DNA from: Limibacillus halophilus | Lineage (GTDB): Bacteria > Pseudomonadota > Alphaproteobacteria > Kiloniellales > CECT-8803 | NCBI RefSeq assembly: GCF_014191775.1 | Contig: NZ_JACHXA010000009.1 | Span: 62,001 to 126,000, forward strand | Direction: 5' to 3' | DNA: 64,000 nt | Shown here: positions 6,698 through 22,243 of the stretch, one piece after another | How positions within the stretch are numbered: position 1 is the first letter of the stretch | Layout of the letters: every line of letters begins with the position of its first letter | The notes under the pieces: generated by a model | The model's input: the letters and a program-made list of their open reading frames with translations, nothing else | Database searches by the model: none | What the model was told of the DNA's origin: nothing | Program-made: the position numbers and the translations under genes

Positions 6698-8473
6698 ATG
6701 GACTCGAGCAACTCAATGACTCCTTTGATGCGCGATTCGGATGGTTTGCCGCTTCGGCTTGCAGATTTCGAAACCTTGTGGGAAGGCCTCGACTACGCGG
6801 CTCAGGGCGCGAAGGGCATCAGCTTCTTCGACTCGCTGGGTCGTCTGACGGGCATCCTCAGCTACCGTGAACTGCGTGACCGTGCCGTGGACTTGGCACT
6901 GCGCCTCAATGCCAACGGCTTCAGACACGGTGACCGGTTGGCGATCGTCGCCGAGACCACACCGGATTTTCCGGTGTTTTTCTTTGGCTGTCAGTACGCC
7001 GGCGTCATTCCCGTTCCCCTGCCGATGAATGTCCATCTTGGCGCCCATGACGCTTACATCGTCAGCCTGCGTAACATGATGAAGGCCGCCGGCGTACGCG
7101 GTGTCGTGGCATCGGACGACTGGATTGCCCAGGTTCGCGAGGCCGCGAGCATGCTGGAGATTCCCTTCGCCGGCCCGCCCGAGGATTTCTATGCGCTCAG
7201 CCGCAAGAAAGGTAGCCTGGCACCGTTCGGCAAGGATGACCCCTGTTACATTCAATATTCTTCCGGCAGCACGGCCTTTCCCAAGGGCGTATTGGGGACA
7301 CAGCTCAGTGTCACCAGCAATGCGCGTGGAATTGGCGGTCATGCGCTTCAGGTGCGTGACGGAGACCATGCCGTTTCCTGGTTGCCGCTTTACCACGATA
7401 TGGGGTTGGTCGGTTTCTGCATCACGCCGATGCTGACGCAGCTTTCGCTCGATTACCTCTCGGCCTCCAGCTTCGCGCGGCGGCCACTGGTGTGGCTTAC
7501 GCTCATGTCGGAACGCCGTGGCACTATCTCCTTCAGCCCGACATTCGGGTATGATCTTTGCGTGCGCAAAATGGAGCGACGCGGTATCGAGGAAGCGGAC
7601 CTGTCGCATTGGCGGATCGCCGGTATCGGCGGTGAGATGATCCGGCCGGCGGTACTGGCCAAGTTCGCCGAGGTCTTTGCGCCTTTCGGGTTTGACGAGA
7701 AGGCTTTCTTGCCATCCTATGGGTTGGCGGAATCGACCCTGGCTGTCACTTTTTCTGGCCTTGGCCGCGGCGTACGAACCCATCGCCGCTCGGAGCTGGC
7801 TCCAGACCAGCGAGACGCCAATTATTCCGGCTTGCACCGGGAGTTCGCGATTTGCGGAAAGCCCATGCCTGGCCACGAGCTCGAGGTTCGTGCCGACGAT
7901 GGAACGCGTTGTGTGGAAGGCGAGATAGGGCGTGTTTTCGCCAAGGGTCCCAGCGTCATGGCCGGTTACTTCGGCGAAGCGGAAGCGTCTGCCGAAGTCC
8001 TGGGCGATGATGGTTGGTTGGATACCGGCGATCTCGGTTATCTACTCGACGGAGAGCTTGTGATCTCGGGCCGCGGCAAGGATTTGATTATCCAGAATGG
8101 CCGCAACATCTGGCCGCAGGATATCGAGTGGGCTGTCGAGCAGTTGGAAGGCGTCAAGGGTAGCGGCGTGGCAGCTGTCTCGATGCCGTCACGCGACGGG
8201 TCCGAGAACGTTGTGGTGGTGGTTGAGGCGCGGGTTAAGGCCGCCGAAGAGATTGCGCTCTTGGAGAAGCAGATCCATAGCACGGTCTATCAGGCCGCCG
8301 GGCTGAAAAGCGAGGTCGTTATTACGACGCCCCGCAGTCTGGTCCGAACGTCATCGGGCAAGCTCAGCCGCGCGGGCACGCTGACCAAACTACTTAGCGG
8401 GCAGATCGCCGTTCTCAACCGAGATGACGAGGACGCCGGCGGTTCTGCGAAGCGGACCGCGCTGGCTAGCTGA
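6698..8473 (+). CDS. aasR: fatty-acyl-AMP ligase / acyl-ACP synthetase of the ceramide pathway
   Basis: Adenylate-forming enzyme of 591 residues. The ATP loop YSSGSTAFPKG is near residue 188. The A5-A8 motifs include PSYGLAESTL and LDTGDLGYL followed by GRGKDLIIQNGRNIWPQDIE. Sequence and length fit the fatty-acyl-AMP ligase class, which activates a fatty acid and loads it on an acyl carrier protein. It is the first of four same-strand genes (this gene, the CerR-like SDR, ACP, SPT). The same gene set is known for ceramide synthesis in Caulobacter, where the acyl-ACP feeds serine palmitoyltransferase. An internal ATG at 6716 is an alternative start. The symbol follows that parallel and is an inference. 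Confidence 0.85.
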   Translation: MDSSNSMTPLMRDSDGLPLRLADFETLWEGLDYAAQGAKGISFFDSLGRLTGILSYRELRDRAVDLALRLNANGFRHGDRLAIVAETTPDFPVFFFGCQYAGVIPVPLPMNVHLGAHDAYIVSLRNMMKAAGVRGVVASDDWIAQVREAASMLEIPFAGPPEDFYALSRKKGSLAPFGKDDPCYIQYSSGSTAFPKGVLGTQLSVTSNARGIGGHALQVRDGDHAVSWLPLYHDMGLVGFCITPMLTQLSLDYLSASSFARRPLVWLTLMSERRGTISFSPTFGYDLCVRKMERRGIEEADLSHWRIAGIGGEMIRPAVLAKFAEVFAPFGFDEKAFLPSYGLAESTLAVTFSGLGRGVRTHRRSELAPDQRDANYSGLHREFAICGKPMPGHELEVRADDGTRCVEGEIGRVFAKGPSVMAGYFGEAEASAEVLGDDGWLDTGDLGYLLDGELVISGRGKDLIIQNGRNIWPQDIEWAVEQLEGVKGSGVAAVSMPSRDGSENVVVVVEARVKAAEEIALLEKQIHSTVYQAAGLKSEVVITTPRSLVRTSSGKLSRAGTLTKLLSGQIAVLNRDDEDAGGSAKRTALAS

Positions 8474-8509
8474 CCGGACCGGAGGGAAGACGGACATGGG
8501 AGATAGCCC

Positions 8510-9460
8510 ATGACCGTGATCGCTGTTACCGGAGCAACGGGATTTGTTGGCCGGGCGGTTGTGGTGGAGCTGCTAAGTCAGGGTGTTGCGGTCAGGGCAC
8601 TGGCCCGAAAGCCGGAAATGCTGGCGGAGTTTGAGAATCTTAGCGTCGTGGCCGGTGATATCTCCAGCAGTGATGCATTGATTCCTTTCCTATCTGGGGT
8701 GGATGGTGTGGTTCACTGTGCCGGACTGGTTAAAGCCCTAAGCAATGCGGAGTTTCAAAGGGTCAATGCGGAGGGGACGCAGGCCGTTGTGACGGCAGCG
8801 ACCAGCGCGGCCGTGAAGCGATTGGTCCTTGTGTCGTCGCTGGCGGCGCGCCGCCCCGAGGTGTCACCTTATGCCGCCAGCAAGCGGGCGGGTGAACAGA
8901 GGGCCAGTGAAAGCGCGCTGAATGTCAGTATCGTCCGTCCCCCGGCTGTTTACGGTCCCGGTGACACGGCGACGCTGCCGTTCTTCAGGCAGGCGGAAAG
9001 AGGCTTTCTGGCCTTACCCGTGCCGCGTGATCAGCGCTTTTCAGTGATCTATGTTACTGATCTGGCGAAGCTGCTGGCAGCGTTGGTGTTGGAACCGAAC
9101 CGTCGGGATGCGGCGCCGATTGAATGCGATGACGGGCGTAAGGGCGGATATAGCTGGGAGGAGTTTGCCCAGGCCGCAGGTGCCGCCGCTGGACGCCGCG
9201 TTCGTTTTCTGCCGGTGCCCGGTTGGTTGATTGGACCGGTGGCGGTTGTCGCGCAGGCCATCGCGAAGTTGCGCCGCCAGGCGGAGATTCTTTCTCCGGG
9301 CAAACTATGCGAGATGGCGCAACCAGAGTGGGTGAGCACGCCAGCCTCGCTTGATGGACTGGATTGGCGACCCGCAGTGGGCTTGCGGGACGGCTTGGCG
9401 CAAGCCCGGCGTTGGTACAAGGATCAGGGCCTGTTGAAACAGCGGGTCGAAGAACGTTAA
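8510..9460 (+). CDS. cerR: NAD(P)-dependent epimerase/dehydratase-family SDR, ceramide reductase-like
   Basis: Extended/atypical SDR of 316 residues. The GATGFVG nucleotide loop is at residues 7-13, VHCAGLV near 68, and the active site is SSLAA...YAASK with an intact Tyr and Lys. Related proteins beside bacterial serine palmitoyltransferase reduce the 3-keto group of oxidised ceramide. Position between the acyl ligase and ACP/SPT supports that role here; sequence alone would only say SDR. A hydrophobic C-terminal segment near 240-255 could associate with the membrane. The ATG lies 36 bases after the ligase stop. Confidence 0.82.
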   Translation: MTVIAVTGATGFVGRAVVVELLSQGVAVRALARKPEMLAEFENLSVVAGDISSSDALIPFLSGVDGVVHCAGLVKALSNAEFQRVNAEGTQAVVTAATSAAVKRLVLVSSLAARRPEVSPYAASKRAGEQRASESALNVSIVRPPAVYGPGDTATLPFFRQAERGFLALPVPRDQRFSVIYVTDLAKLLAALVLEPNRRDAAPIECDDGRKGGYSWEEFAQAAGAAAGRRVRFLPVPGWLIGPVAVVAQAIAKLRRQAEILSPGKLCEMAQPEWVSTPASLDGLDWRPAVGLRDGLAQARRWYKDQGLLKQRVEER

Positions 9461-9472
9461 GGGATGAATTTG

Positions 9473-9505
9473 GCCAAGTGTACCCATCTGGGGACTTGGC
9501 TTTTT
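9473..9505 (+). terminator. intrinsic terminator-like hairpin inside the sphingolipid operon
   Basis: GCCAAGT (9473-9479) pairs perfectly with ACTTGGC (9494-9500). An inner CCC/GGG pair tightens the loop and TTTTT follows at 9501-9505. It ends only 8 bases before the ACP start codon. It may terminate transcription after the CerR-like gene, act as an attenuator, or stabilise an mRNA end. Confidence 0.7.
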
Positions 9506-9512
9506 AAACAGG

Positions 9513-9770
9513 ATGGATCGAACGTTGGATAAGAAAATTTTTGGCATCATTCTGGAGATTCTGACGGAGTTCAATCCGGATGGGCGCGACATTGCGCCAG
9601 GAACGAAGCTAAATGAAGACCTGAATCTCGACAGCGTGACGGCTATGGATCTCGTTATGGAGATCGAGGATCGCTTCGAGATCGATATTCCGATGAATAT
9701 GGTCGGCGAGGTGGAAACGGTTTCCGACCTTGTGGCTGTGGTTGAGGACCGTATGGCGGGGGGAAAATAA
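9513..9770 (+). CDS. acpR: dedicated acyl carrier protein for sphingolipid synthesis
   Basis: ACP of 85 residues with the phosphopantetheine attachment Ser41 in LNLDSVTAMDLVMEIED, followed by the acidic helix II typical of carrier proteins. It is not next to fab genes; it sits between an acyl-ACP ligase and serine palmitoyltransferase, so it most likely carries the acyl chain from one to the other. The start codon immediately follows the hairpin at 9473-9505, and AACAGG at 9506-9511 is the only ribosome-site candidate. The stop at 9770 is 2 bases from the next ATG, implying translational coupling with spt. Confidence 0.9.
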   Translation: MDRTLDKKIFGIILEILTEFNPDGRDIAPGTKLNEDLNLDSVTAMDLVMEIEDRFEIDIPMNMVGEVETVSDLVAVVEDRMAGGK

Positions 9771-9772
9771 TC

Positions 9773-10987
9773 ATGGATATCTTCGATAAGTACGCACCGC
9801 TGCTGGAGCGTTTCCAGGCTGCGACTTCAGGAGGCAAGAATCCTTTTGGTGTCTGTCTGGAGGATATCTACTCGGCGACCGAAGCCAAAGTTGACGGCCG
9901 CCGGACCATCCTGTTGGGCACCAACAACTATCTTGGGCTGACCTTCAACGAGGATTGCATTGCCGCAGCGACCGAGATGCTGAAGAGCCATGGCACCGGA
10001 ACCACCGGTTCGCGCATCGCCAACGGCAGTTATGCGGAGCACGAGGCGTTGGAAAAATCCATTGCCGAATACCTGAATCGCAAGTCGGCCATCGTGTTCA
10101 GCACTGGATATCAGGCGAATTTCGGTGTCATCGTCGGCCTCGCCGGACCCAAGGATGTGATCTTTCTTGATGCCGATTCTCACGCCAGCATCTATGACGG
10201 TTGCAAGCTCAGCGGTGCAACGCTGATCCGCTTCCGCCACAATGACACGGAAGACCTCGACAAGCGCATGTCACGCTTTGCCGACTTCGAAGGCTGCAAG
10301 CTTGTGGTCACGGAAGGGCTTTATTCGATGCTCGGTGACACGGCCCCCTTGAAGGAATTCGTCGAGGTCAAGAAAAAGCACGGTGGCTGGCTGCTGGTGG
10401 ACGAAGCCCATTCGTTTGGCATGTATGGTGACCACGGCCGTGGCGCTGCCGAACACTACGGCGTTGAAAAGGATGTCGATTTCGTCGCGGGAACCTTCTC
10501 CAAGAGCCTTGGCGCGATCGGTGGATTTGGAGCGTCGGATCATCCGATGTTCGATGTGTTGCGTTTTGCCAGCCGTCCTTACATGTTCACGGCTTCGCCG
10601 TCGCCCGCCTCCATTGCCTCGGTTCATGCAGCGCTGGATTGCATGCGCAAGGACCCAAGCCTAAGGACGAGAATCTGGGAAAACGCGCGGCATCTCTTCC
10701 AAGGTTTGAAGGACGCGGGTTTCGAGGTAATCTCGGAGCTAAGCCCAATTGTCGCGGTTCGCATGCCCGACGAGGCGACGGCGGTGGCTTTCTGGAACCG
10801 CCTGCTAGAGAACGGAATTTATGTGAACTTGGCCGTGCCTCCCGGCACGCCCAAGGGCGTTTGTTTGATGCGGTGCAGTGTCTCTTCGGCCCATGAGGCC
10901 CGGCAGATCGACGATGCTATCGACGCCTTCGTACGGACCCGGTCGGAAGTGTTCAGCGATGAAGAGGTGGCCGCTACAGCTTCGTAA
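9773..10987 (+). CDS. spt: serine palmitoyltransferase (alpha-oxoamine synthase family)
   Basis: PLP enzyme of 404 residues that condenses serine with an acyl thioester to 3-ketosphinganine, the first committed step of sphingolipid synthesis. Visible residues are NNYLGL at 51-56, GTGTTGSR at 74-81, the cofactor-stacking H138 in DADSHASI, D210 and H213 in LVDEAHSFG, and the PLP lysine K244 in GTFSKSLGAIGG. Related KBL and BioF enzymes share this fold, but linkage to an ACP, acyl-ACP ligase and ceramide enzymes makes SPT the best call. The protein is soluble-like, with no membrane segment, as in other bacterial SPTs. Confidence 0.92.
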   Translation: MDIFDKYAPLLERFQAATSGGKNPFGVCLEDIYSATEAKVDGRRTILLGTNNYLGLTFNEDCIAAATEMLKSHGTGTTGSRIANGSYAEHEALEKSIAEYLNRKSAIVFSTGYQANFGVIVGLAGPKDVIFLDADSHASIYDGCKLSGATLIRFRHNDTEDLDKRMSRFADFEGCKLVVTEGLYSMLGDTAPLKEFVEVKKKHGGWLLVDEAHSFGMYGDHGRGAAEHYGVEKDVDFVAGTFSKSLGAIGGFGASDHPMFDVLRFASRPYMFTASPSPASIASVHAALDCMRKDPSLRTRIWENARHLFQGLKDAGFEVISELSPIVAVRMPDEATAVAFWNRLLENGIYVNLAVPPGTPKGVCLMRCSVSSAHEARQIDDAIDAFVRTRSEVFSDEEVAATAS

Positions 10988-11003
10988 TTGGCAGGGTCGC
11001 CAA

Positions 11004-11915
11004 TCAGCGTAAAGCGCCCTGACGGTAGAGTTTTACGGCAAGCGGTATCCCGGCCAGGATGGGGTGGCGCTTCTGCCATTCCGTGAGCGGTATCCGCACG
11101 CCGGAATGCCGCTCTACCTTCCAGGCCAGATAGGTCGCGCCGCCGGCAAAGGTGAAGGCCGCTTTCATAAGGCGCAGGACAGACAGCGGCTTGCCAATGG
11201 CGCGGCGCATCCACCAGAGGCTTCTGCCGAACCATACTGGCTTGCGCCACAAGCCTTCGACCGACTTGAGAAACAGTTCCCCGGTCAGTCGGTAGCGCTC
11301 TGGGTCGGTTGCAAGAATATCGGCGCCCCGCAGTGCATTCTCGGCCCGTAGCTCCGTCGCATAGGTTTGCTTCAGCGCGTGGAGCCATATCTGGTCGCTG
11401 GTTTCTGCGAGAACCGTCGGCAGCGCGGCCGCCAACATGGTCTGTTGCGCGCGCTCGAAAATCTTCAGACAGGTATCCCTCGTGTCGTCGCTGTCGTGCC
11501 AGGCGATGGCGGTCGGCTGTGAAAAGCGCGCCCAGAAATAGGGATGCAAAGCGCTGCCCTTGACGCGGCTGTGAAGCTGATTCATGGAAACGACGGCGTA
11601 CTTGGCGCGAAACGTTTGCGCGGCATTGCCTGCCTCCAGATAGTAGACATTTGGCGGCAGCAGGGCATTGAAAAGAGCTGAAATGGGGTTGCGGTGAGCC
11701 TCACGGTAACGCCGCACGATCACATAAAGGTCCGCCATGCGGTCCTCGGTGATTCCGTCGCGCAGGCAGCTACCGTAGAAAAGCACGGCCATGGCCCCGG
11801 GGTGGCGGCTACGGGCCTTCTCGACAAGAAGCCGCAAGGCCTCTGAATCCGGAGCCTCGGCTTCGCGCTCCAGAATTGGCCTTAAGAGGCTGGTATGAGC
11901 TTCACCGTGGGGCAT
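11004..11915 (-). CDS. TAM41-like nucleotidyltransferase in the sphingolipid locus
   Basis: Protein of 303 residues. Near residue 46 it has FYGSCLRDG, and about 10 residues later MADLYVIVRRY, a GS...D pattern of the polymerase-beta nucleotidyltransferase fold. The arrangement resembles mitochondrial TAM41, a CTP-using phosphatidate cytidylyltransferase. It is last in the minus-strand run of kinase, CDP-alcohol transferase and this gene, with a 3-base gap to the kinase. It may make the CDP-activated donor or acceptor for the head-group reaction. Basic C-terminal stretches (KLYRQGALR) could bind membrane. Family assignment is by eye and moderate. Confidence 0.65.
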   Translation of the reverse strand: MPHGEAHTSLLRPILEREAEAPDSEALRLLVEKARSRHPGAMAVLFYGSCLRDGITEDRMADLYVIVRRYREAHRNPISALFNALLPPNVYYLEAGNAAQTFRAKYAVVSMNQLHSRVKGSALHPYFWARFSQPTAIAWHDSDDTRDTCLKIFERAQQTMLAAALPTVLAETSDQIWLHALKQTYATELRAENALRGADILATDPERYRLTGELFLKSVEGLWRKPVWFGRSLWWMRRAIGKPLSVLRLMKAAFTFAGGATYLAWKVERHSGVRIPLTEWQKRHPILAGIPLAVKLYRQGALR

Positions 11916-11918
11916 CGC

Positions 11919-12893
11919 TCAGATCCTGACAAACTCGAAACTATGCCCCAACTCGACCTTCAGAGGCTCGGTCGCATGGCAATCGAAAAGCTGCCCGTCG
12001 ATGGTAAAGGGACTGTCCATCCAAAGTTCCAAAACTCTTGCTTCCCCGCTATGGCACCCCTTGGGATTCAGCTTGCGGTCGGCCTTCCCGAAAAGCAACC
12101 GCGGCAGCGACCACCAAAACGCCGCTCCGGGTTTCTGGACCAGGGTCACGCTGAAGCCGCTTCGTTGGCTCGGATCGCGCGGCTGGTTCCAAAAGGGTCG
12201 GGTTCCGACCACCAACCTGTCCAGAGTAGTCGCGACCACGACCGAGAGCGAGTCGCTTTGCTTCTCGCCTCCATCCCAACGCCAGTCGACGTTCTGGCCT
12301 TTTAGCAAGCGACCGCCGATCATCTGCTGAACCAGAAGGCTTGCCATGGTGGCGGCATTGGCCCAACCCGCCTCCAAGCCTAGGGTGTGCACACGGTCTC
12401 GGCAATATTCTATGCCTTGATAGATTCCAGCGCCGCCGAGAAAGAAACCCGCCTGGGGTGGGCCCATGCCACCACCGGAAACTACGATCGGGCTGCGTCT
12501 CAACGTTTCGCTGCGCCAGAGCGCCTCACCTCGCTGAAACCGCTTCACAAGGCGGGCAAGCGCTTTATCGGCCCTGCCTTTGAGGCCAATGTCGGCAGCG
12601 GTCATGTTCGTCATGCCGGCGGATAAAATGGCGATGGCCGGGCGCGGGAGGTCAGGCTGGCGAACAAGGTACTCGGTCATGCTGGCGACGACGGTACCGT
12701 CACCTCCGGCGATCGCAACGAGCGGCAAGCCTGCGTCGGCGAAACGCCGTAACGTGCGACCCAGGGTCTCAATCCCGTCTAACTCCACATAGTCGATCAG
12801 ATCGCCATAACTCTGCACGGCCTCCCTGAGCGCAGGAAGACCGCGCTTGTTGCGCTGGCTGTGCGGGTTGACGACCAGCCCGAAGCGGTTCAT
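11919..12893 (-). CDS. diacylglycerol/sphingosine kinase-family lipid kinase, probable ceramide kinase
   Basis: Protein of 324 residues starting MNRFGLVVNPHSQRNKRG. The kinase signature GGDGTVVASMTEYL is near residue 80, as in DAGK and LCB5 catalytic domains. A membrane-surface contact region is likely near the C-terminus. The ATG at 12893 overlaps the stop of the CDP-alcohol transferase as ATGA, supporting this start over longer in-frame ones at 12917 and 13001. In Caulobacter a kinase of this type phosphorylates ceramide en route to ceramide phosphoglycerate; the same role is inferred here from the SPT/ceramide synthase context. Sphingosine or diacylglycerol are alternative substrates. Confidence 0.8.
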   Translation of the reverse strand: MNRFGLVVNPHSQRNKRGLPALREAVQSYGDLIDYVELDGIETLGRTLRRFADAGLPLVAIAGGDGTVVASMTEYLVRQPDLPRPAIAILSAGMTNMTAADIGLKGRADKALARLVKRFQRGEALWRSETLRRSPIVVSGGGMGPPQAGFFLGGAGIYQGIEYCRDRVHTLGLEAGWANAATMASLLVQQMIGGRLLKGQNVDWRWDGGEKQSDSLSVVVATTLDRLVVGTRPFWNQPRDPSQRSGFSVTLVQKPGAAFWWSLPRLLFGKADRKLNPKGCHSGEARVLELWMDSPFTIDGQLFDCHATEPLKVELGHSFEFVRI

Positions 12894-14041
12894 CGCTTTT
12901 GCGGCTCGGTCAGCCATGATGTCAGACCTTGACCTTTGGCCGTTGCGGCCGCGGCCTGCCCAAGTTGCAGCAGGTGCACTGCGAGAGACAGCGCTGTCCA
13001 AATCGCAACGGCCAGCAAGCCAAGGTCCTCGCGACCGACCAGCGCCGAGGCGGTCAGCAGCAGGAGATTGGGGTTGCGGCGCGCGGTGATCAGACGGAAG
13101 AAGCTGTCGAATGGCCGCCAGACATGAACCTCCAGCTTGAAGAGCGCGATGAACAGCCCTTCGATCAGGCGCTGGATGATGTATCCGGCGAATATGACGA
13201 CCAGGCTGGCGTAGTAGACAGAGGGCTCCAGGCTATGGGGGCCCGCCTGCACGCCCCAAGCCCATGCCAAGTACCAAAAGGGCGGGTGTATCAGGTCGAT
13301 ACTGTGGTCGAAGACGTTGCCCCACTTGCTGTACTGGTAAGTGATTCGCGCCAGTTTGCCGTCGACAGTATCCAGGAAAGTCATGATCCAGGCGGCCAGC
13401 AGCCCCAGTAGCCAGGCACCTTCCGCAAAAAGGAGCATCGCGGCCAGCACCATGATCAAGCTAACCAGCGTCACCATGTTGGGCGTCAGTCCCATACGGG
13501 CGCAGAATTTTGTCACATGGAAAGCAGGCCAGGGCCAGACATGCTTGGTAACGACATCGGTAACGCCTTTGTATGTCCCCATGAAAAGCCGCCACTCCAC
13601 CGCGCGTCGGTTAGTTTCCGTTACGCGCAGCGCCAAGGGTTCGGCCCGTTTGCGCAGGTCATGCCAGTAATCGCTCCCGAGGTCGGCGACACGCCGAGCG
13701 GGCAGGCCGACCGCCGGGTCATCGAGAGCCGCAGCGGCTTCATTTGCCTTGTTGCTTTTCGCTGCCAAACCGGCACCGCTGTCGTCAATCAACAGGAAGG
13801 GCCCGGGTTCCTGCAACAAAGCGCGAATAACCGGCGGGTCGAATGCACAGTCGTCCCAAAGAGCGATATAGGGGCCATCCCCGGCGTCGCTCGACATCGT
13901 GACCTCGCTCGCGTTGGCGAAGGTTGCCGCGCCCAGTTTGCGAAAGGCGCGCTCCAGATGGGCACGTGGCGTCAGCGTCCAGAGCGGTACATTGCTGCGA
14001 CCCACGAACAGAACGGTTGTTTCTGGGGTTCCCTCGGTCAT
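12890..14041 (-). CDS. CDP-alcohol phosphatidyltransferase with an extra N-terminal domain
   Basis: Membrane enzyme of 383 residues. The full CDP-alcohol phosphotransferase motif is present: DTVDGKLAR, then G eight residues later and the spaced D...D of FDHSID. At least five hydrophobic segments follow residue 185. Residues 1-150 are soluble and resemble the nucleotidyltransferase-like N-termini of bifunctional inositol-phosphate cytidylyltransferase/phosphotransferases, but no GxGxR loop is obvious. It probably joins a phospho-head group from a CDP donor to ceramide phosphate. It is coupled to the kinase by ATGA. A 68-base gap separates it from the LptG-like gene. Confidence 0.8.
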   Translation of the reverse strand: MTEGTPETTVLFVGRSNVPLWTLTPRAHLERAFRKLGAATFANASEVTMSSDAGDGPYIALWDDCAFDPPVIRALLQEPGPFLLIDDSGAGLAAKSNKANEAAAALDDPAVGLPARRVADLGSDYWHDLRKRAEPLALRVTETNRRAVEWRLFMGTYKGVTDVVTKHVWPWPAFHVTKFCARMGLTPNMVTLVSLIMVLAAMLLFAEGAWLLGLLAAWIMTFLDTVDGKLARITYQYSKWGNVFDHSIDLIHPPFWYLAWAWGVQAGPHSLEPSVYYASLVVIFAGYIIQRLIEGLFIALFKLEVHVWRPFDSFFRLITARRNPNLLLLTASALVGREDLGLLAVAIWTALSLAVHLLQLGQAAAATAKGQGLTSWLTEPQKR

Positions 14042-14109: not shown

Positions 14110-15177
14110 TCACTCCAGCCGAATCGCATAGGCAAGAATGCCACAAGTCAGTGCCGAAGGTGGAATCCAGGCGGCTGCCATCGCCGGCAGCAATCCTGCT
14201 TCCCCCAGGGAAACCGCTGCCGCGCTTAGAATCTGATAAAAGAACCCGACCAATACGCTGTTCACGATGAGCCATACCGCGGTCCCCCGGCGTCGAAAGC
14301 GCTGGGCCACCGCAGCAACCAACAAGACCAACAGGATTGGATTAAGTATCTGCACGAAGCGGAACTGCCGCCAGGTTTCGAAAATATAACCGGGACGGAC
14401 GCCAAAGCCATCCGCCGAGGAGATTCGCTGCAACGCTTCCAGCGGTAACTCGGGAGCCGGCTGGCGCAGCAGTTCGATATCTTGCAACTGGATATCCGCT
14501 TGCCACGCATAGGTGCTGCCCCGCGTCATTTCCCCCACCTCGCCGACAGGACGAACGATAGCGTCCTTCAACTGCCATCCGGCAAAGGTCTTGCGGGCAA
14601 TTGCGGATTCTACTTCCAGGATCAACTTCCCGGAATCGTCCCGTCGGAAAATATGCAAATCCGTGATGAGGCCCGGCTGCTTGGGATCATAGCGCAAGCT
14701 GACGATATCGTTGCCGCTACGCACCCACAGCCGCCCCTTATCGTCAGTCGGCAGCGGTGCCGGTTGGAACTCAGCGATACCCCACTTCCGAAGTGCGTCT
14801 GCAGCCGGCGGCATGAGCTGATTGTCGACGCCGTACTGGACTATGGCGAGCACGGCCGCGGCCGGCAGCAAAATTCCAAATTGCCTGAAAGGCGACAAAC
14901 CAGAGTTCCACAGGGCCACAAGCTCGCTGTGCCGGATAATGGTCACGAAGGAAAGGATCGCAGCCAACAGAGCCGCGACCGGCAACAGGCGTGAGGCGAG
15001 GGTTGCCGATCGGTAGAGTGCATAATTCAAAAGGGGTGAATTCACACGGGTGCTGGCGACCACGGCATCAGCATTTTCCAAAAGGTCGAAAGCCAGGGCA
15101 AAGAGCACAAGGCCAATGGAAAGCGCCAAGAACCGTATCAGCAGGAGGCGGCCGATGTAGCCGGACAATATGGTCAC
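14110..15177 (-). CDS. LptG-like permease (YjgP/YjgQ family)
   Basis: Protein of 355 residues with three N-terminal and three C-terminal hydrophobic segments flanking a periplasmic beta-rich domain (about 125-255), the LptF/LptG layout. LptG pairs with LptF and the LptB ATPase to lift lipopolysaccharide from the inner membrane onto the periplasmic bridge. Here it sits inside a sphingolipid locus, so a sphingolipid-specific export role is possible. It overlaps the LptF-like gene by ATGA. No lptA, lptB or lptC is in the window, which is common because they are usually separate. Confidence 0.85.
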   Translation of the reverse strand: MTILSGYIGRLLLIRFLALSIGLVLFALAFDLLENADAVVASTRVNSPLLNYALYRSATLASRLLPVAALLAAILSFVTIIRHSELVALWNSGLSPFRQFGILLPAAAVLAIVQYGVDNQLMPPAADALRKWGIAEFQPAPLPTDDKGRLWVRSGNDIVSLRYDPKQPGLITDLHIFRRDDSGKLILEVESAIARKTFAGWQLKDAIVRPVGEVGEMTRGSTYAWQADIQLQDIELLRQPAPELPLEALQRISSADGFGVRPGYIFETWRQFRFVQILNPILLVLLVAAVAQRFRRRGTAVWLIVNSVLVGFFYQILSAAAVSLGEAGLLPAMAAAWIPPSALTCGILAYAIRLE

Positions 15178-16373
15178 TGTGTCCGTCCTCCGGCTTCCAT
15201 AACGATGATGCGCCGCGTTCTCCTCCTGCTAGGCAAATCGAAGAACCGGCCTTCCGATTGACGAACCTTGAAGGCTGCGCTGTAAAACAGGGTCGCGGCG
15301 ACCGTGACGAGAAGCACCAGAGAACCCCATTGGGCCACCCAGGGCGAGGCCAGTCCCTGTTCCACAAGGTCACCGCCAAGGCTCAGCAACTCGTGCTGGA
15401 TGACAAGGATCACGAAGCCGACGATCAACCCTTGGCCCTGCCGCACACGGCGTCCACCCATGGCCAGGGGAATGGCCAGGAAAGGGAGTATGAAGATGGT
15501 CAGGCTCCGCACGAAGCGTTCATGAAGCTCGGCTATGATTTCACCTTTTGTCGCGGTTGTGTCGGGGGAGCTGAGCCCCCTCCACAGCTCAAGAAGTGTC
15601 ATCTCCCGCTCGTCTTCGCCGCGTCCGCGGAACCCCAGATACTCCTGCATAGGTATGACCCAGCGCGTTTCATCGAAGTGGAGCGCGCTGCTGGTTTGGC
15701 CAGGCTGAATCAGACCGTTGGAGATTTTTCGCTCGATCCTCAAACCGTCGAAAAGGCGGAGCAGCAGCACATTCTCGTCGCGCTTTGATACCAGATGCCC
15801 TTCACGCGCCGTGACCAAGGAGACCGGCTGATCGTCGCGATCGGAGAAGATGAAGACCTTCCTGAAAAATTGCCCGTCGCTGGATACCTGTTCTGCGATG
15901 AAGGTGGTTCCCTTGTAGGTTCTGAACACGCCTTCTTGAACATAGGCAAGTTGCGAGGTGTAGGTGATGGCGTGGACCGCTGCCCGGTAAGCATACCGAC
16001 CGTATGGTTGCAGATAGTTGAAGACCGTGAGCGTTAAGAGAGATACGAGCACCGCGATCATCAGCATGGGACGGGTTAACCTGGAAAGGCTGACCCCGCC
16101 CGAGAAAAGCGCGTCCAACTCGTTGTTTCTGTGAAGATTGTTGAAGGCAACGTAGATGGCTAAAAAAAACGCCAACGGCAAGGCGAGGCCAATATAGTGG
16201 GGCGCCAGGAAAGCCAACAGTTTGAGGACCGATCCGAGGGAGCCGTGCGCATCGAGCACCAAGTCCATCACGCGCAGCATGCGTTCGACAAGCAAGGCCA
16301 GCAGGGCAACGCCCATCGTCGCACCCAATGGTGCGGCAAGGAGCCTGAAGAGATAAAAGTCCAACTGTTTCAT
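15174..16373 (-). CDS. LptF-like permease (YjgP/YjgQ family)
   Basis: Protein of 399 residues starting MKQLDFYLFRLLAAPL, with helices at about 10-35, 50-75, 90-120 and three more after 280, and a periplasmic domain between. The conserved FNNLHRNNELDALFSGG segment near residues 75-90 is the coupling-helix region typical of this family. Start 16373 was chosen over the longer frame at 16412 because homology begins there and the longer frame overlaps the HIT gene. It is the partner of the LptG-like protein. A full CDS pair so close to ceramide genes is notable. Confidence 0.85.
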   Translation of the reverse strand: MKQLDFYLFRLLAAPLGATMGVALLALLVERMLRVMDLVLDAHGSLGSVLKLLAFLAPHYIGLALPLAFFLAIYVAFNNLHRNNELDALFSGGVSLSRLTRPMLMIAVLVSLLTLTVFNYLQPYGRYAYRAAVHAITYTSQLAYVQEGVFRTYKGTTFIAEQVSSDGQFFRKVFIFSDRDDQPVSLVTAREGHLVSKRDENVLLLRLFDGLRIERKISNGLIQPGQTSSALHFDETRWVIPMQEYLGFRGRGEDEREMTLLELWRGLSSPDTTATKGEIIAELHERFVRSLTIFILPFLAIPLAMGGRRVRQGQGLIVGFVILVIQHELLSLGGDLVEQGLASPWVAQWGSLVLLVTVAATLFYSAAFKVRQSEGRFFDLPSRRRTRRIIVMEAGGRTQ

Positions 16374-16396
16374 AGAGGGCCCTGCGCGCTTGCCCG

Positions 16397-16828
16397 TCAA
16401 GCGGGCCAGCAATCTTTCAATGCTGTAAGAAGCGCCTGTCGCGTGTGCGGTTCAATATCCGGTGCACTCCCAAGGTTCGGCACTGCGGGCCAACCGCTAT
16501 CGGCGAAGGTCGTGCCGCCAAACTGTTGCGGCGAATCGTAGCGCGGCAGCACGTGAAAATGCACCTCCCGATCCACCATCATAAGCATCAGGTAGTTGAT
16601 CTTTTGATAGGGGCGAAAGGCACGCAAGGCGGTCTCGATGTCCGATACGGCCCGGGCGAGTTCCATGAAGGACTCTTCATTGATGTCGGAGAAGGCCTGT
16701 GCCTTGGACTTGTGGGCTAACACAAGCGCGCCAAGCGTAGCCTGCGCCGGGCGTAGCAGAACCACCCAGTTGGCATAGTCGGCAACCAAGCTATCGGGGT
16801 AGCCGAACTTCTCGATTGTCGGATTCAT
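16397..16828 (-). CDS. HIT family nucleotide-hydrolase-like protein
   Basis: Small HIT-fold protein of 143 residues. The histidine triad region reads REVHFHVLPRYD near residues 87-98, with hydrophobic residues between the histidines. HIT proteins hydrolyse or transfer nucleoside phosphates such as AMP-lysine or dinucleoside polyphosphates. Its place directly upstream of the LptF-like gene suggests co-transcription, possibly clearing a nucleotide by-product, but this is not shown by the sequence. Confidence 0.85.
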   Translation of the reverse strand: MNPTIEKFGYPDSLVADYANWVVLLRPAQATLGALVLAHKSKAQAFSDINEESFMELARAVSDIETALRAFRPYQKINYLMLMMVDREVHFHVLPRYDSPQQFGGTTFADSGWPAVPNLGSAPDIEPHTRQALLTALKDCWPA

Positions 16829-16915: not shown

Positions 16916-17869
16916 TTAACCCAGAATTATGCTTTTGGGCGAGTGTTGCGGCATTTCAACGATTTCTCCCGCCTCATTCAGCCCCCTTTGGCGTGTTTCC
17001 AAGTACCGATGTCCCCCCTCGCTGTAGAAGCGGTAGAGATTATAGTGGGCTGCAGGGCGGTCGCGATAGGGCAGAGCCGAAGCGGAGGGTACGCCAATAA
17101 CGGGAACCGGGCGCGACGGATCCGGGCCCGGCAAAGTGAGATTGACGAAACGGTGATTATGGCCGTGCAGCACGAGTTCGGCCCCGGCGCGGGCAACAAC
17201 CTCCGCAAAGGCCTGTCGGTCGTCGAGGCCTTTGCGACCCGAGGCCGCCTCCGCCAAGGGCGGATGATGGAGCAACACCACCCTGATCAGACCGGCCGAT
17301 CGGGCATCGGCAAGGAGCCGTTCCAGGCCGGCAAGCTGTTCCGGTCCCAGACGCCCGGACGCCAAACCCGGCGCTGTGGCGACGGCGCTGGAGAGGCCAA
17401 TCAAGGCAAGAGGCCCCCGCTTTCGAATGAAGGGGAACGTGCTTGAGCGCGTTTTAGAGCCCGGATCCTGGTCACTTTGCATGTATCCGGCCCAATGGCC
17501 CCAGCCATCGGCCCAGGAAAGATCGATATAGGCGTCATGATTCCCGGGAACTAGAGACACCGTCTCCGGCGTACCCAGACCATCGAGCCAACGCCGGGCC
17601 TGTCGGAACTCGGCGGGTAGGGAAATATTGGTAATGTCACCGGTAACGGCAATGTGGTCGGGGTTCTGTGCCGCCAGGTCCGCGCAGATCCGATCCAGAA
17701 CGTCGCGCCGATGTATGTGCCGCCGTCGCCGTTGCCACGATAGATAGCCGAGAACCCGCTTGCTGGCGAGTTCGCGCCAACCGGGCTGTGGCAGAGGCGG
17801 GACGTGTGGGTCAGACAGATGTGCTAGAAGATACATTGGGCCGTGGCGGTTTGCGTTCAAATATGCCAT
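16916..17869 (-). CDS. calcineurin-like metallophosphoesterase
   Basis: Protein of 317 residues with all metallophosphoesterase motifs: LSDPHV near 18 (D-x-H), VTGDITN near 75 (GD), VPGNHDAY near 107 (GNHD), LLHHPP near 200 and HGHNHRF near 236 (GHxH). It is a cytosolic Fe/Mn/Zn phosphoesterase; CpdA-like and UDP-diacylglucosamine hydrolase-like proteins share this fold. It lies in the sphingolipid block, so a lipid or CDP-intermediate phosphodiester is a possible substrate. ATG at 17836 is an alternative start that puts the first motif close to the N-terminus. Confidence 0.85.
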   Translation of the reverse strand: MAYLNANRHGPMYLLAHLSDPHVPPLPQPGWRELASKRVLGYLSWQRRRRHIHRRDVLDRICADLAAQNPDHIAVTGDITNISLPAEFRQARRWLDGLGTPETVSLVPGNHDAYIDLSWADGWGHWAGYMQSDQDPGSKTRSSTFPFIRKRGPLALIGLSSAVATAPGLASGRLGPEQLAGLERLLADARSAGLIRVVLLHHPPLAEAASGRKGLDDRQAFAEVVARAGAELVLHGHNHRFVNLTLPGPDPSRPVPVIGVPSASALPYRDRPAAHYNLYRFYSEGGHRYLETRQRGLNEAGEIVEMPQHSPKSIILG

Positions 17870-17886
17870 TGTGATGATAGGGCTTT

Positions 17887-18672
17887 GTGCTCATTGAAGA
17901 CCATCCCACTTTTATCCTGAACAGAGGTTTTCGGACGTTGAAAGCAGTGATCCTGTCCGCCGGTCAGGGCAAGAGGTTGTTGCCTCTGACCGAGAATACC
18001 CCAAAAGCGTTGCTTGATATCCAGGGCCGTCCGCTTTTTGCGTGGCAGGTCGATTCTCTTGCGGCTAATGGCGTAACGGAAATTGTTTTCGTGACGGGGT
18101 ACAATAGCGAACTTTTCGATAAGTCTCTTGAAGACTTGGCGCCGCGCTACCCGCAGGTCAAGCTGCGTAGCCTTTTCAATCCCTTTTATTCAGTGGCCGA
18201 CAATCTGGCGAGTTGCTGGATGGCGCGCTCTGAGCTTCAGGGCGACGTATTCTTGATCAATGGCGATACGTTGTTCCACCGCGATCTTGCCGCGCGGGTG
18301 GTCACCAGCCCCGACGCGCCGATTACCTTGGCCATCGATCAGAAGGCTCAGTACGACGAGGATGACATGAAGGTCGGGCTCGACGGCACCCGGTTGATTG
18401 CCATCGGCAAAACGCTGACTGCGGAGCAGACCCAGGCCGAGTCCATAGGGTTTCTTTTCTTCCGTAAATCCGGCTCCGCTCGCTTCGTGCAAATGCTAGA
18501 GGACTGGATGCGCGACGGTGAAGGCCTGCGGCGCTGGTACCTCTCGGCGATCCACGCGCTTTCCTCGGAAATCGATATCCAGACCCGGCTTATTGCGGGT
18601 CTCGAGTGGTGCGAGGTGGATTATCCGCAGGATCACCAGCGGGCTCAGGAGATGTTGTCGGCCTGGCCTTGA
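17887..18672 (+). CDS. LicC-like NTP (probably CTP) nucleotidyltransferase
   Basis: GT-A-fold nucleotidyltransferase of up to 261 residues. The signature LKAVILSAGQGKRLLPLT is followed by PKALLDIQGRPL, and LINGDTLF holds the metal-binding Asp. It resembles phosphocholine and other small-head-group cytidylyltransferases. The listed start is GTG; a TTG at 17938 would begin right at the signature, is closer to the family norm and has AGAGG upstream. It points away from the phosphoesterase, so the 17-68-base gap must hold both promoters. It could produce a CDP-activated acid such as CDP-glycerate for the anionic head group; this is inference from context. Confidence 0.78.
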   Translation: MLIEDHPTFILNRGFRTLKAVILSAGQGKRLLPLTENTPKALLDIQGRPLFAWQVDSLAANGVTEIVFVTGYNSELFDKSLEDLAPRYPQVKLRSLFNPFYSVADNLASCWMARSELQGDVFLINGDTLFHRDLAARVVTSPDAPITLAIDQKAQYDEDDMKVGLDGTRLIAIGKTLTAEQTQAESIGFLFFRKSGSARFVQMLEDWMRDGEGLRRWYLSAIHALSSEIDIQTRLIAGLEWCEVDYPQDHQRAQEMLSAWP

Positions 18673-19457
18673 GTCAGAATGGATTCCACCAGCTTTAAAT
18701 CCTCGAGCGTATCGACATCGATGCCGACCAGGGGATCCGGGTGGTGAAAAGCAGCGATCTTGCAATCGGCGAGCTTGCTCAAACGATCCAGTGCCCGCTG
18801 CAAAGAGAGCCTTCCCAGCAGATAAGATAACAACAGGCCCAGCCCAAAGCGCCGCAGAATGCGTAAGGGCCGCTTCCGGTCTGCCTCGACACTCCGCCAA
18901 AGCGTCAGCAGGTTTCGAGCAGGCTTCCCGCGCATCAGGAAAAGATTGCAGCCTGCTACCTTTTGGTCACTGAAACGCCAAGCCGTTCTCTTGACCTCGG
19001 GGAAGCGGCGCTGCAAGGCTTCCACATCGGCCAGCGCGGCCACGAAATCGGCATCTTCAGGCGCGCCGTCCAGGAACGTCTTGATCTGACCGGCCTGGAG
19101 CAAAGCGTGGTCGGCGGTCGTCAGCAGAACCCCGGTTTCTTCGGGGAGCTTTGCGAGAGCCTCCAGCACGCTGCTGGCGGGGCTTCCCGACGGGGCCAGA
19201 ATCCGGAGTTGCCCGAGCGCATTGATCCGCTGGGCCGTCTCGCTCTTGCGCACCGCTTCCGGGGCATCGCTGACCACCAGAATTTGGTTGAAGCGCTCAC
19301 TTTCGTGTAACGCATTCAAGACTCGCGACAGCATTTGCTTGCCGCCAACTTCCACCATCCATTTATCGGGTAATCCGAGAGCATTGGCGAGTGGATCGCC
19401 GCTCCTGCGGCGTCCGGCCAACACGATGGCCGCGAGTTTCTCCGTGGCGCTGGTCAC
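18645..19457 (-). CDS. MobA-like NTP transferase domain protein
   Basis: Nucleotidyltransferase-fold protein of 270 residues with the VLAGRRRSGDPLANALGLPDKW loop near residues 12-34 and LLTTADHALL near residue 95. The usual GGxSxRMG-type loop is altered to AGRRRSGDP, which is common in uncharacterised members beside bacterial ceramide synthase genes. Its start overlaps the stop of the ceramide synthase gene (ATGA), so it is translationally coupled. Its 3' end overlaps the convergent LicC-like gene by 28 bases. Function is unknown; head-group activation is possible. Confidence 0.7.
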   Translation of the reverse strand: MTSATEKLAAIVLAGRRRSGDPLANALGLPDKWMVEVGGKQMLSRVLNALHESERFNQILVVSDAPEAVRKSETAQRINALGQLRILAPSGSPASSVLEALAKLPEETGVLLTTADHALLQAGQIKTFLDGAPEDADFVAALADVEALQRRFPEVKRTAWRFSDQKVAGCNLFLMRGKPARNLLTLWRSVEADRKRPLRILRRFGLGLLLSYLLGRLSLQRALDRLSKLADCKIAAFHHPDPLVGIDVDTLEDLKLVESILTQGQADNIS

Positions 19458-20599
19458 AGCAAGTCCTTCTCGTAAACCCGGTAGGTCTTGTAGATTTCAG
19501 CACCCATCGCCTCGATGATCTTATGAGTCCCGTGGTTGTCTTCCAGCACCCAGCCAAGCTCGGCATTAACGTTGCCTCGACCTTGATGGAAAATGCGGAC
19601 ATTCTCGATGATACCTAGAGCAAGAGCCGCACCGAGATTTGTCGATTGATACTTTTGACGCACGCCCATCAAAGGCATGCGCACGGATTCCACACCGGAA
19701 ACCTTCAGCCGCCACAACAGCTTTACCCAGTTGAACGGGAAGAGCCGTCCGCCGAAATCGCGAATTGCTTCGTTAATGTTGGGAAGCGTCACCACCATGG
19801 CCGCTGCTTCTCCGTCTATCTCGGCAATGCAGCCGAATTCGGGAGTGATGATCGGCTTTATGGTTTTGGCGAGGTTGTTGATCTCGGACTCGGTCATGGG
19901 GACGAATCCCCAGTTGCCGGACCAAGCGTCGTTGAAGATATCGACGATGAGATTTAGATCGCGTTCGAAGTTCTTCCAATCAATGGCGCGGAACTCCACG
20001 TCGACCCCGCGCAGCGCTCTGTTCACCAGCTTGTCGGTGAGCGGGGGGCGCGAATTCAACGACCCATAGGCGTAGGCCACCATGTCCTTGGCCTTACCAT
20101 AGCCTTGCTCTTCAACCCGGGGGCCGTAATAGGGCTGGGCGTGCCCCATCATGACGTATGGCGGCGTGTCGAATCCGTCGATCAACAAACCGGTTTCCTC
20201 GTTGATGGATAGGCTGAAAGGACCCAGCGCCCGTTTCATCCCGCGTTGCTTGAGCCAGGACTCCGCGGTCTCAAAAAGCGCTGCAAATACCGCCGGGTCG
20301 TCGACAGCGTCGAGAAACCCGAAGTGTCCGGTCCAATCTTGGTAGCGTTCCAGATAAATGCTATCGATCTGGGCGCTGATTCGACCGACGCAATCTTCCC
20401 CGCGATAAGCAAGCCAGAAGGCCGCTTCGGCGTGCTCGAAATAGGGGTTGTGCTTCGGGCTGAGGTTCAGCAACCGCTCCAATGTGAGTTGGGGAATGTA
20501 GTTTGGGTCCGACGCCATGATGCGGGCGGGCAACCGAACAAAGCGCTTCAGGTCGCGGCGGTTTGCGACGGGAACGACGCTGATCTCGCTGTGTGGCAT
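19454..20599 (-). CDS. bcerS: bacterial ceramide synthase (GNAT-fold N-acyltransferase)
   Basis: Protein of 381 residues with the layout of the family linked to bacterial sphingolipids: the N-terminal RDLKRFVRLPARIMASDPNYIPQL stretch, a central ALGPFSLSINEETGLLIDGFDTPPYVMMGHAQPYY region, and a GNAT-like C-terminal half. Bacterial ceramide synthases acylate the amine of 3-ketosphinganine and are unrelated to eukaryotic TLC-domain enzymes. The start at 20599 is 11 bases after the hydroxylase stop; longer frames run into that gene. In Caulobacter the equivalent gene also sits a few genes away from spt, as here. Confidence 0.82.
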   Translation of the reverse strand: MPHSEISVVPVANRRDLKRFVRLPARIMASDPNYIPQLTLERLLNLSPKHNPYFEHAEAAFWLAYRGEDCVGRISAQIDSIYLERYQDWTGHFGFLDAVDDPAVFAALFETAESWLKQRGMKRALGPFSLSINEETGLLIDGFDTPPYVMMGHAQPYYGPRVEEQGYGKAKDMVAYAYGSLNSRPPLTDKLVNRALRGVDVEFRAIDWKNFERDLNLIVDIFNDAWSGNWGFVPMTESEINNLAKTIKPIITPEFGCIAEIDGEAAAMVVTLPNINEAIRDFGGRLFPFNWVKLLWRLKVSGVESVRMPLMGVRQKYQSTNLGAALALGIIENVRIFHQGRGNVNAELGWVLEDNHGTHKIIEAMGAEIYKTYRVYEKDLL

Positions 20600-20609
20600 C
20601 AAAAGTGCT

Positions 20610-21377
20610 CTACGCCGCTTCTGGAGTATCCGTCTTGCGGGGCGCCTCGTCCCGTCGCTCCGGCGAAAGGCGCGCAACCCACGGATAACGCTCCGCCTCT
20701 TGGGCGGTATAGCCCAGGTTGAAGACGGTTGCGCTTCGGGCGATGTCCTTGGGACGAGCGTAATAGGTGCCGAGCATCTTGTCGGCGGCAAAATTCGTGA
20801 TACCGAAATTGCCCTGCTCGTTATGGAAGTGGTGAGCCAGGTGCAACTTCTTAATCTGCTTCAACCATTCATATTCGGGTTTGAAAGGTAGGTGCTGAAT
20901 GCAATGGCAGAACTCGTAAAAGCAGGTGGTGATGAGCCCTGACGCCAAGGCCGCCGCGGCGCCGCCCGGTCCGGCCAAGACCCAACCGATCGGCAAGGTC
21001 ACGACCAAAATGGTCGGTAGCGTCGTGTAGAGCGCACCGAACAGAATGCCTAAATCGTTGGGGTCCTGATGGTGATCGAAATGAATGCGCTTCCACAGGC
21101 TGGCGGTCGCGGCGCTTTTGTAAAGATAGCGGCCGTGCAGCACGAAGCGGTGCAGCAGGTACCAGATGAAGGGGTAGACGGGCACCACCAGGGCCGCGGC
21201 GAACAGCGACATGACCGTATCTTGGTTCCAGGCGACGGCAGCAATGATCGAGAGGACCGCCAGCAGCAGATAGGCCATGATGGCATAGTAGGTGAAGTAG
21301 GCCCGCACTAGGTCGCCCAGCGTCATCTTGTCCAAAAAATACTTGCGCGCCGACCAGACGCCCCAGCGGATTTCCAC
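20610..21377 (-). CDS. sterol desaturase / fatty acid hydroxylase-family protein
   Basis: Integral membrane di-iron enzyme of 255 residues. Hydrophobic segments are at about 28-50, 55-75 and 112-155. Histidine clusters include HRFVLH (76-81), HFDHH (99-103), a central EFCHCIQH, and HLAHHFHNEQGNFG. This family adds hydroxyls to lipid chains, including sphingoid bases and ceramide acyl chains in eukaryotes and some bacteria. It lies directly upstream of the ceramide synthase in the same transcript. Target chain and position are unknown. Confidence 0.85.
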   Translation of the reverse strand: MEIRWGVWSARKYFLDKMTLGDLVRAYFTYYAIMAYLLLAVLSIIAAVAWNQDTVMSLFAAALVVPVYPFIWYLLHRFVLHGRYLYKSAATASLWKRIHFDHHQDPNDLGILFGALYTTLPTILVVTLPIGWVLAGPGGAAAALASGLITTCFYEFCHCIQHLPFKPEYEWLKQIKKLHLAHHFHNEQGNFGITNFAADKMLGTYYARPKDIARSATVFNLGYTAQEAERYPWVARLSPERRDEAPRKTDTPEAA

Positions 21378-21487
21378 TCTGCTGCTCTCCTGTATTGAGA
21401 ATCTGCCGTAAAGATAGTCTCCATGGGCCTTTTCAGCAAGGCTAGGTCAGGTCTTGGTTCATCGCTAAGCAGTCCAGGGCGTCCAGG

Positions 21488-22243
21488 TCAGAAACGGCCG
21501 AGCCCGCGTGGTTTCAACTTGTTGGCCCAATAGCGGACACCCGCCCGCCCGCCGCCGGCTAGATCCTGCGACGATTGGGGGGTTAAGTCGTCGTCCAGTT
21601 GATAGATTCGGGGGATGGCGGTGGCAATACGAAAGGCCGCACTGGCTTCATCGTCTAGGTTCTCGATCACCCGGGCCAGCCCGCGTATGGAACTGGTATG
21701 GGCCACCACCAGTACGCGTTTCCCGGCCTTTAGAGCCGGGCCGATCTCCTCCTCGAACACTGGCCGCACCCGCGCCGCGGCGTCGCCCAGGCTCTCACCC
21801 CTGGGTAGGCGCGTCGGGTCGATGTCGGCGAAACGCGCGACCTGCTCCAGCCACCGCGGATCATCGTCTTCCAGTAGCGGCGGCACCGCATGGTAGTCGC
21901 GCCGCCAAGCCACGACCTGCGCATTTCCGTGCTCTGCAATTGCGGCGGGACGCGTCACTTCTTGTAGTTGTCCGTAGTGGCGTTCGTTGAGTCGCCAATC
22001 GACAACGACCGGCAGCGTTTCAGCCGCCATCGTTTCGGTAATCGCCTCCAGGGTTTCCCGCGCCCGCAGCAGCCGCGAACAGTAAGCGACATCGAACTCC
22101 AGGTTCGCGCGCCGCAGGGTTTGGGCGGCTTTCCGCGCCTCTGTCCACCCAGCCACGCTGAGCGGTGTATCGCCCCAACCTGCGAAGCGATTTTCCTGAC
22201 CCCAACGCGTGGCGCCGTGACGTATGAGAACAAGTGTTGGCAT
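21488..22243 (-). CDS. phosphoglycerate mutase family protein (dPGM/GpmA-type)
   Basis: Histidine phosphatase fold protein of 251 residues. The catalytic RHG is at residues 8-10 (H9) in LVLIRHGATRWGQENRFAGWGD. The LNERHYGQLQ motif that distinguishes true 2,3-bisphosphoglycerate-dependent mutases follows, and VVAHTSSIRGLAR supplies the second catalytic His. It interconverts 2- and 3-phosphoglycerate. Its place at the head of the minus-strand sphingolipid block could supply 3-phosphoglycerate for a phosphoglycerate head group. The insert near 100-130 differs somewhat from E. coli GpmA. Confidence 0.85.
   Translation of the reverse strand: MPTLVLIRHGATRWGQENRFAGWGDTPLSVAGWTEARKAAQTLRRANLEFDVAYCSRLLRARETLEAITETMAAETLPVVVDWRLNERHYGQLQEVTRPAAIAEHGNAQVVAWRRDYHAVPPLLEDDDPRWLEQVARFADIDPTRLPRGESLGDAAARVRPVFEEEIGPALKAGKRVLVVAHTSSIRGLARVIENLDDEASAAFRIATAIPRIYQLDDDLTPQSSQDLAGGGRAGVRYWANKLKPRGLGRF

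Follow-up and report, generated by a model that had tools for sequence, protein, structure and literature searches.

What lipid does a compact sphingolipid locus in Limibacillus halophilus make, and why does it carry a phosphoglycerate mutase (PGM) gene of its own? The locus occupies positions 6698-22243 of the stretch of DNA analyzed here (64,000 nucleotides of contig NZ_JACHXA010000009.1, hereafter the window), where inspection of open reading frames (ORFs) and family profiles reveals 16 intact, closely packed genes. The organism is placed in the order Kiloniellales from its named relatives Pelagibius, Fodinicurvata and Aquibaculum. Our analysis points to a Kiloniellales member of the CC_1165-CC_1152-type ceramide-(di)phosphoglycerate cluster of Caulobacter, with a dedicated PGM paralog, Pgm2, in a CpgA-CpgD module and an Scs7-like hydroxylase. 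We assign this explanation as a whole a probability of roughly 0.68. All genes named in the original prediction, which was made from the sequence alone, are present as intact ORFs where it had placed them, and the match to the Caulobacter cluster for ceramide diphosphoglycerate (CPG2) gives good support to its claim that an anionic sphingolipid is built, decorated and exported by the locus.

Much of this pathway, whose product is a sphingolipid of the outer membrane bearing phosphoglycerate in its head group, is already known. Five genes of the Caulobacter crescentus region CC_1168-CC_1152 lead to ceramide and six more to ceramide phosphoglycerate (CPG) and CPG2; for the second copies of LptC, LptF and LptG in the cluster a transport role was proposed and a requirement was not demonstrated (PMC11324152). 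CpgB is the ceramide kinase (PMC10331486), and CpgD, a CTP:phosphoglycerate cytidylyltransferase, acts preferentially on D-2-phosphoglycerate (PMC12275187; PMC13228409). The source of this 2-phosphoglycerate (2-PG) was left open, with a dedicated supplying enzyme raised as a possibility (PMC12275187, 2025). The CofC-like nucleotidyltransferase is required for CPG2 in Caulobacter, and the HIT gene CC_1157 is regarded in the literature as probably unrelated.

The window locus begins on the plus strand with aasR, cerR, acpR and spt, to which long-chain base synthesis is assigned. The minus strand then carries, in this order, cpgC, cpgB, cpgA, lptG2, lptF2, the HIT gene and a phosphoesterase gene; cpgD lies on the plus strand, followed on the minus strand by the nucleotidyltransferase gene, cerS, the hydroxylase gene fah and pgm2. 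This gene order is found again in many other genomes and therefore recurs far beyond chance. The genes are as follows.

6698-8473, plus: aasR, fatty acyl-AMP/acyl-ACP ligase (NF006624, 690.7 bits against a cut-off of 600; syntenic in SPT loci)
8510-9460, plus: cerR, SDR/epimerase-fold reductase, assigned as ceramide reductase (PF01370, E 7e-27; always between aasR and acpR)
9513-9770, plus: acpR, dedicated acyl carrier protein (PF00550, E 1.9e-10)
9773-10987, plus: spt, serine palmitoyltransferase (NF047599, 617.9 bits against a cut-off of 500)
11004-11915, minus: cpgC, Tam41-like nucleotidyltransferase, predicted CTP:ceramide-1-phosphate cytidylyltransferase (AF2 model with Foldseek/VIA)
11919-12893, minus: cpgB, ceramide kinase, DAGK_cat (PF00781, E 6e-11; the ORF opens at 13001 and the likely start is the ATG at 12893, overlapping the cpgA stop)
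12890-14041, minus: cpgA, CDP-alcohol phosphotransferase, assigned to the second phosphoglycerate (PF01066, E 6e-11)
14110-15177, minus: lptG2, second LptG-like permease (PF03739, E 3e-41)
15174-16373, minus: lptF2, second LptF-like permease (PF03739, E 1e-67; likely start ATG 16373)
16397-16828, minus: HIT-domain protein, CC_1157 counterpart (PF01230, E 0.003, under the Pfam cut-off; a 12-homolog profile matches 2oik, E 9e-11)
16916-17869, minus: calcineurin-like phosphoesterase, CC_1158 counterpart (PF00149, E 9e-13; profile matches Rv0805 and relatives)
17887-18672, plus: cpgD, CTP:phosphoglycerate cytidylyltransferase (PF00483; LicC 1jyk, E 8e-19; real start probably about 17938)
18645-19457, minus: CofC/IspD-like nucleotidyltransferase, CC_1153 counterpart (PF12804, E 7e-13; profile matches 2dpw and IspD structures)
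19454-20599, minus: cerS, bacterial ceramide synthase, tandem GNAT fold (AF2 model; adjoins the hydroxylase in many loci)
20610-21377, minus: fah, FA_hydroxylase, Scs7-like predicted ceramide hydroxylase (PF04116, E 3e-20)
21488-22243, minus: pgm2, specialized cofactor-dependent PGM (dPGM) paralog (TIGR01258, 228 bits against a cut-off of 82)

Correspondence to the Caulobacter genes is drawn from families, gene order and published descriptions, not from the Caulobacter locus sequence. All four of cpgA, cpgB, cpgC and cpgD are present in the window genome. Residues R30, K40, D127, M161 and K175 of the window CpgD are invariant in an alignment across 23 homologs and line up with the published Caulobacter residues R16/K26/D112 and the 2-D-PG determinants M147/K161, a mapping made by spacing without the Caulobacter sequence itself. 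The original prediction had set the hydroxylase, the LptFG pair and the PGM beyond the core set. This was right for the PGM and half right for the hydroxylase, which lies outside the Caulobacter cluster and is common in other loci; the LptFG pair is ruled out as an addition, being CC_1156/CC_1155 of the published cluster. The biosynthetic core and the LptFG pair are thus already known, and only the hydroxylase and pgm2 exceed the published set.

How these genes are distributed suggests which of them work together. A window-type Spt was found in 24 of 61 genomes of Kiloniellales; it was not found in the one other genome among them from the window's family. A stable core recurs in the 20-kb neighborhoods, namely aasR-cerR-acpR-spt, cpgC, cpgB, lptF2G2, the nucleotidyltransferase gene, cerS and the hydroxylase gene, usually with the phosphoesterase gene. 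By genome-wide count, cpgA and cpgD are strictly coupled: 9 of 27 genomes carry the pair and 18 carry neither gene. At the locus level cpgA, cpgD and HIT are all present in 12 of 20 Kiloniellales genomes and all absent from 8, a pattern whose p-values treat genomes as independent and are optimistic for that reason; hydroxylase counts in the same comparison are limited by the fetched region or a contig end in G031 and G023, which are not true absences. Three genomes carry HIT-cpgA-cpgD as a distinct block close to the main cluster or, in the fragmented G023, on its own contig; cpgA and cpgD of G012, G019 and G023 lie outside the 20-kb spt neighborhood and were found by the genome-wide search.

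A tree of nine core proteins groups the window genome with loci that have no cpgA/cpgD (support 1.00 for the window with Fodinicurvata/Aquibaculum). This placement points either to repeated joint loss of cpgA, cpgD and HIT or to loss followed by regain, and both readings imply functional coupling. Loss by a single deletion is less likely, since the three genes occupy separate sites within the cluster. The comparison ties the HIT gene to the CpgA-CpgD module and argues, contrary to the literature on CC_1157, that it belongs there. The HIT proteins themselves vary in their triad: E or D replaces the first histidine in the proteins of the window and of Pelagibius, several others have H there, and the remaining two histidines are invariant. 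Most loci that lack cpgA/cpgD retain the CofC-like nucleotidyltransferase, a pattern that constrains published pathway schemes; the enzyme therefore probably serves a function apart from the CpgA step.

Within Kiloniellales, pgm2 is restricted to the window genome, seven Pelagibius genomes and another Kiloniellaceae metagenome-assembled genome (MAG; G058, the site also listed as named locus L147), where no Spt was found in an assembly that is 87% complete and highly fragmented. The copies adjoin hydroxylase-cerS and, where the contig extends, are divergent from an Elm1-family gene; position and orientation are constant in all full-context loci despite about 50% protein divergence. No copy lies outside loci with cpgA/cpgD, except on a contig fragment that shows the same PGM-FAH-CerS order. 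Every examined locus without cpgA/cpgD lacks pgm2 though the hydroxylase and cerS remain there, and a tie of Pgm2 to hydroxylase/CerS instead of CPG2 is accordingly disfavored.

Every carrier also has a separate housekeeping PGM, which rules out Pgm2 as the sole glycolytic enzyme: the window genome has a second dPGM (contig C4, 37% identical), and Pelagibius and G058 have a full-length gpmI. The cluster copies fall outside the housekeeping dPGM clade (tree support 1.00). All of them carry S14T, N17S/G, S/T23A, K100R, G187T and N188S/A (PGAM1 numbering), the corresponding residues in human PGAM1 and the housekeeping copies being S, N, S/T, K, G and N; we take these six positions to line the substrate site in dPGM structures. 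The catalytic residues R10, H11, R62, E89, R116, R117 and H186 are retained. Because the canonical substrate pocket (N17, S/T23, K100, G187-N188) is not kept in any cluster copy, Pgm2 is named here as a member of the dPGM family and not as a proven mutase.

The simplest reading that we infer from this pattern is that Pgm2 feeds D-2-PG, made from 3-phosphoglycerate (3-PG), to CpgD. The locus would thus supply a concrete candidate for the 2-PG source sought in the CpgD paper (PMC12275187). A search of open-licence papers found none that connects phosphoglycerate mutase with bacterial ceramide. Several points weigh against this supply role. The changed pocket may mean that Pgm2 has lost 3-PG to 2-PG conversion, and 2-PG is already produced by the housekeeping PGM. 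A linked Pgm is missing from most CPG2-type loci (Dongia, G012, G015, G284 and the published Caulobacter cluster) and is hence not needed for CPG2. Finally, Pgm2 is found in just two lineages of one order, giving few independent origins of the link to cpgA/cpgD.

The altered pocket gives weight to a serious, if less likely, alternative, in which Pgm2 would be a neofunctionalized enzyme of the dPGM fold acting on another phosphate, for example as a phosphatase/mutase on a glycerate-containing CPG2 intermediate or on 2-/3-PG analogs, and not a supplier of D-2-PG. S/T23A, K100R, G187T and N188S/A are found in all cluster copies, with the phosphohistidine machinery kept, and in neither the housekeeping copies nor human PGAM1. 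However the fold, the C-terminal region and most phosphate-binding arginines are still dPGM-like, every one of the closest solved relatives is a genuine PGM/BPGM enzyme and no phosphatase-type truncation is seen. More specifically, and just as tentatively, a neofunctionalized Pgm2 might act on the head-group phosphoglycerate unit or on an unusual phosphoglycerate isomer, forming with CpgA, CpgD and HIT a gain/loss module that sets one versus two phosphoglycerates per sphingolipid.

It is unlikely that Pgm2 is a mere neighbor, a glycolytic isozyme lying upstream of hydroxylase-cerS by chance. Its narrow phylogenetic range and its absence from most CPG2-type loci would fit such an accident, but not its constant position and orientation over that protein divergence, its absence from all cpgA/cpgD-less loci although hydroxylase-cerS persist, its coming in addition to two kinds of housekeeping PGM, or its diverged pocket. 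Least probable is that the organism stops at CPG or produces another ceramide phosphoester instead of CPG2, with CpgA/CpgD/HIT/PGM serving another CDP-glycerate-derived product: loci without cpgA/cpgD do retain cpgB, cpgC and usually the nucleotidyltransferase and phosphoesterase genes, and product chemistry beyond Caulobacter is unproven, but the CpgD specificity residues are conserved and cpgA and cpgD are strictly coupled.

The preferred reading remains a CPG2 system with Pgm2 as part of the CpgA-CpgD module. Head groups may vary further in related loci. Dongia-type and some other loci (L109, L110, L111, L112, L116, L118, L155, L169, L178, L185, L192, L193) carry, between lptG2 and the hydroxylase gene, an additional cpgA-like CDP-alcohol phosphotransferase, diverged to 33-41% identity and possibly a candidate for adding a further head-group unit. 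Three loci of alphaproteobacterial family f38 (L125, L131, L132) keep cpgC, cpgB, lptF2, the hydroxylase gene and cerS; no CofC-like nucleotidyltransferase, phosphoesterase, cpgA or cpgD was seen in them, which suggests an even simpler head group.

Two enzymes of the core had to be approached through predicted structure: neither CpgC nor CerS has a Pfam or NCBIfam match, and PDB sequence profiles were uninformative too. The AF2 model of CpgC (pLDDT 91.6) has the Tam41 CDP-diacylglycerol (CDP-DAG) synthase 7ecd as its first-ranked Foldseek match (VIA: Z 18.1, rmsd 3.2, 222 residues). CpgC thereby gains a structural match to a CDP-lipid synthase and, with its Tam41 fold, probably makes CDP-ceramide on the way to CPG. 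For CerS (pLDDT 92), the structural matches are tandem GNAT proteins (E ~1e-14).

Of 80 named loci, 61 have the hydroxylase gene close to cerS; these belong to Kiloniellales, Dongia, Geminicoccaceae, Sphingomonadales and some Nitrospirota and gammaproteobacterial MAGs. As the 80 are the best matches to the hydroxylase, this fraction describes that clade only. The rest are mostly Myxococcota without other window genes. Co-occurrence of the extra genes with spt, as originally proposed, thus holds for the hydroxylase, whereas the PGM is confined to a subset of Kiloniellales and tracks cpgA/cpgD, not spt. Presence of fah is independent of the cpgA/cpgD module. Its His-box residues (H76, H81, H99, H102, H103, H158, H162, H179, H182, H183) are invariant in 24 sequences and align to those of yeast SCS7 (4zr1/4zr0, E ~1e-14), the sole significant PDB relatives. 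This match cannot separate acyl 2-hydroxylation from C4 sphingoid hydroxylation. Hydroxylation in Caulobacter is ascribed to an unlinked DesA-family enzyme, so fah would be a different solution. No published assignment for a PF04116 hydroxylase adjacent to CerS was found in open-licence papers; this widespread gene is a likely source of hydroxylated ceramides in Alphaproteobacteria. The same hydroxylase clade occurs at 55-59% identity in Myxococcus/Corallococcus genomes whose hydroxylase neighborhoods lack all other window genes (L152, L156, L158-L160, L164, L171, L173, L180, L183, L187, L212, L220, L221), which suggests transfer among sphingolipid producers.

Export probably relies on components outside the locus. 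The genome has two LptFG pairs, the housekeeping pair, on a different contig (G000:C3:166905-169156), being 25-26% identical to lptF2G2. No LptB/A/D and no second LptC are present within the locus, and the only LptC (PF06835) detected genome-wide lies elsewhere, although a divergent LptC2 could fall below detection. LptF2G2 must therefore share the sole LptC, use an undetected one or act without LptC, and the description of the locus as self-contained is not supported for export. Nearby, an Elm1-family (PF06258) gene at 22295-23602, divergent from pgm2, also adjoins the hydroxylase gene in Pelagibius and in further loci and is a GT-B-like candidate for sphingolipid or lipopolysaccharide decoration. 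Just downstream of the locus, 23526-24911 encodes a protein with a weak Kdo-transferase N-domain. An MsbA-like ABC exporter (28029-29753), 6 kb from the locus and over no specific NCBIfam cut-off, is a possible lipid flippase.

From the observed gene content, folds, coupling and altered-pocket extra PGM we infer what each enzyme does, which lipid is made and how PGM, HIT and the hydroxylase take part. As demonstrated in Caulobacter and by correspondence in the window, AasR would charge AcpR with a fatty acid, Spt join it to serine, CerS N-acylate and CerR reduce the product to ceramide. The Scs7-like di-iron enzyme would then hydroxylate ceramide, probably on the N-acyl chain. CpgB, by analogy with its Caulobacter counterpart, would phosphorylate ceramide, and CpgC probably yields CDP-ceramide en route to CPG. 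CpgD, whose activity is established in Caulobacter and whose specificity residues are conserved in the window, would convert CTP and D-2-phosphoglycerate to CDP-glycerate, from which CpgA, as proposed in the literature, would add the second phosphoglycerate. The dPGM paralog would belong to the CpgA-CpgD module as a dedicated component, its simplest function being to convert 3-PG to 2-PG for CpgD. LptF2G2 would extract the lipid with shared housekeeping Lpt parts.

Compared with known systems, Pgm2 shares with dPGM/GpmA and PGAM1 the fold family and catalytic H11, R62, E89, R116, R117 and H186; it differs at six positions at or around the substrate site and in being encoded as an extra PGM inside a lipid locus. 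CpgC has the fold of the Tam41 CDP-DAG synthases (7ecd, 6ig2, 6ig4) across 222 residues, at about 15% identity and with ceramide-1-phosphate as its predicted substrate. The fah product has in common with yeast Scs7 and human FA2H (PF04116; 4zr0, 4zr1) the hydroxylase domain, the histidine boxes and the ceramide context, but is bacterial and has no cytochrome b5 domain. The closest likeness is to Caulobacter CC_1168-CC_1152. The window locus is without the linked LptC2 (CC_1168), CC_1167 and putative flippase CC_1166 of that cluster; it matches it in aasR, cerR, acpR, spt, cpgC, cpgB, cpgA, the phosphoesterase, HIT, lptF2, lptG2, cerS, the CofC-like nucleotidyltransferase and cpgD, in a near-identical arrangement, and adds to it an Scs7-like hydroxylase next to cerS and a specialized dPGM.

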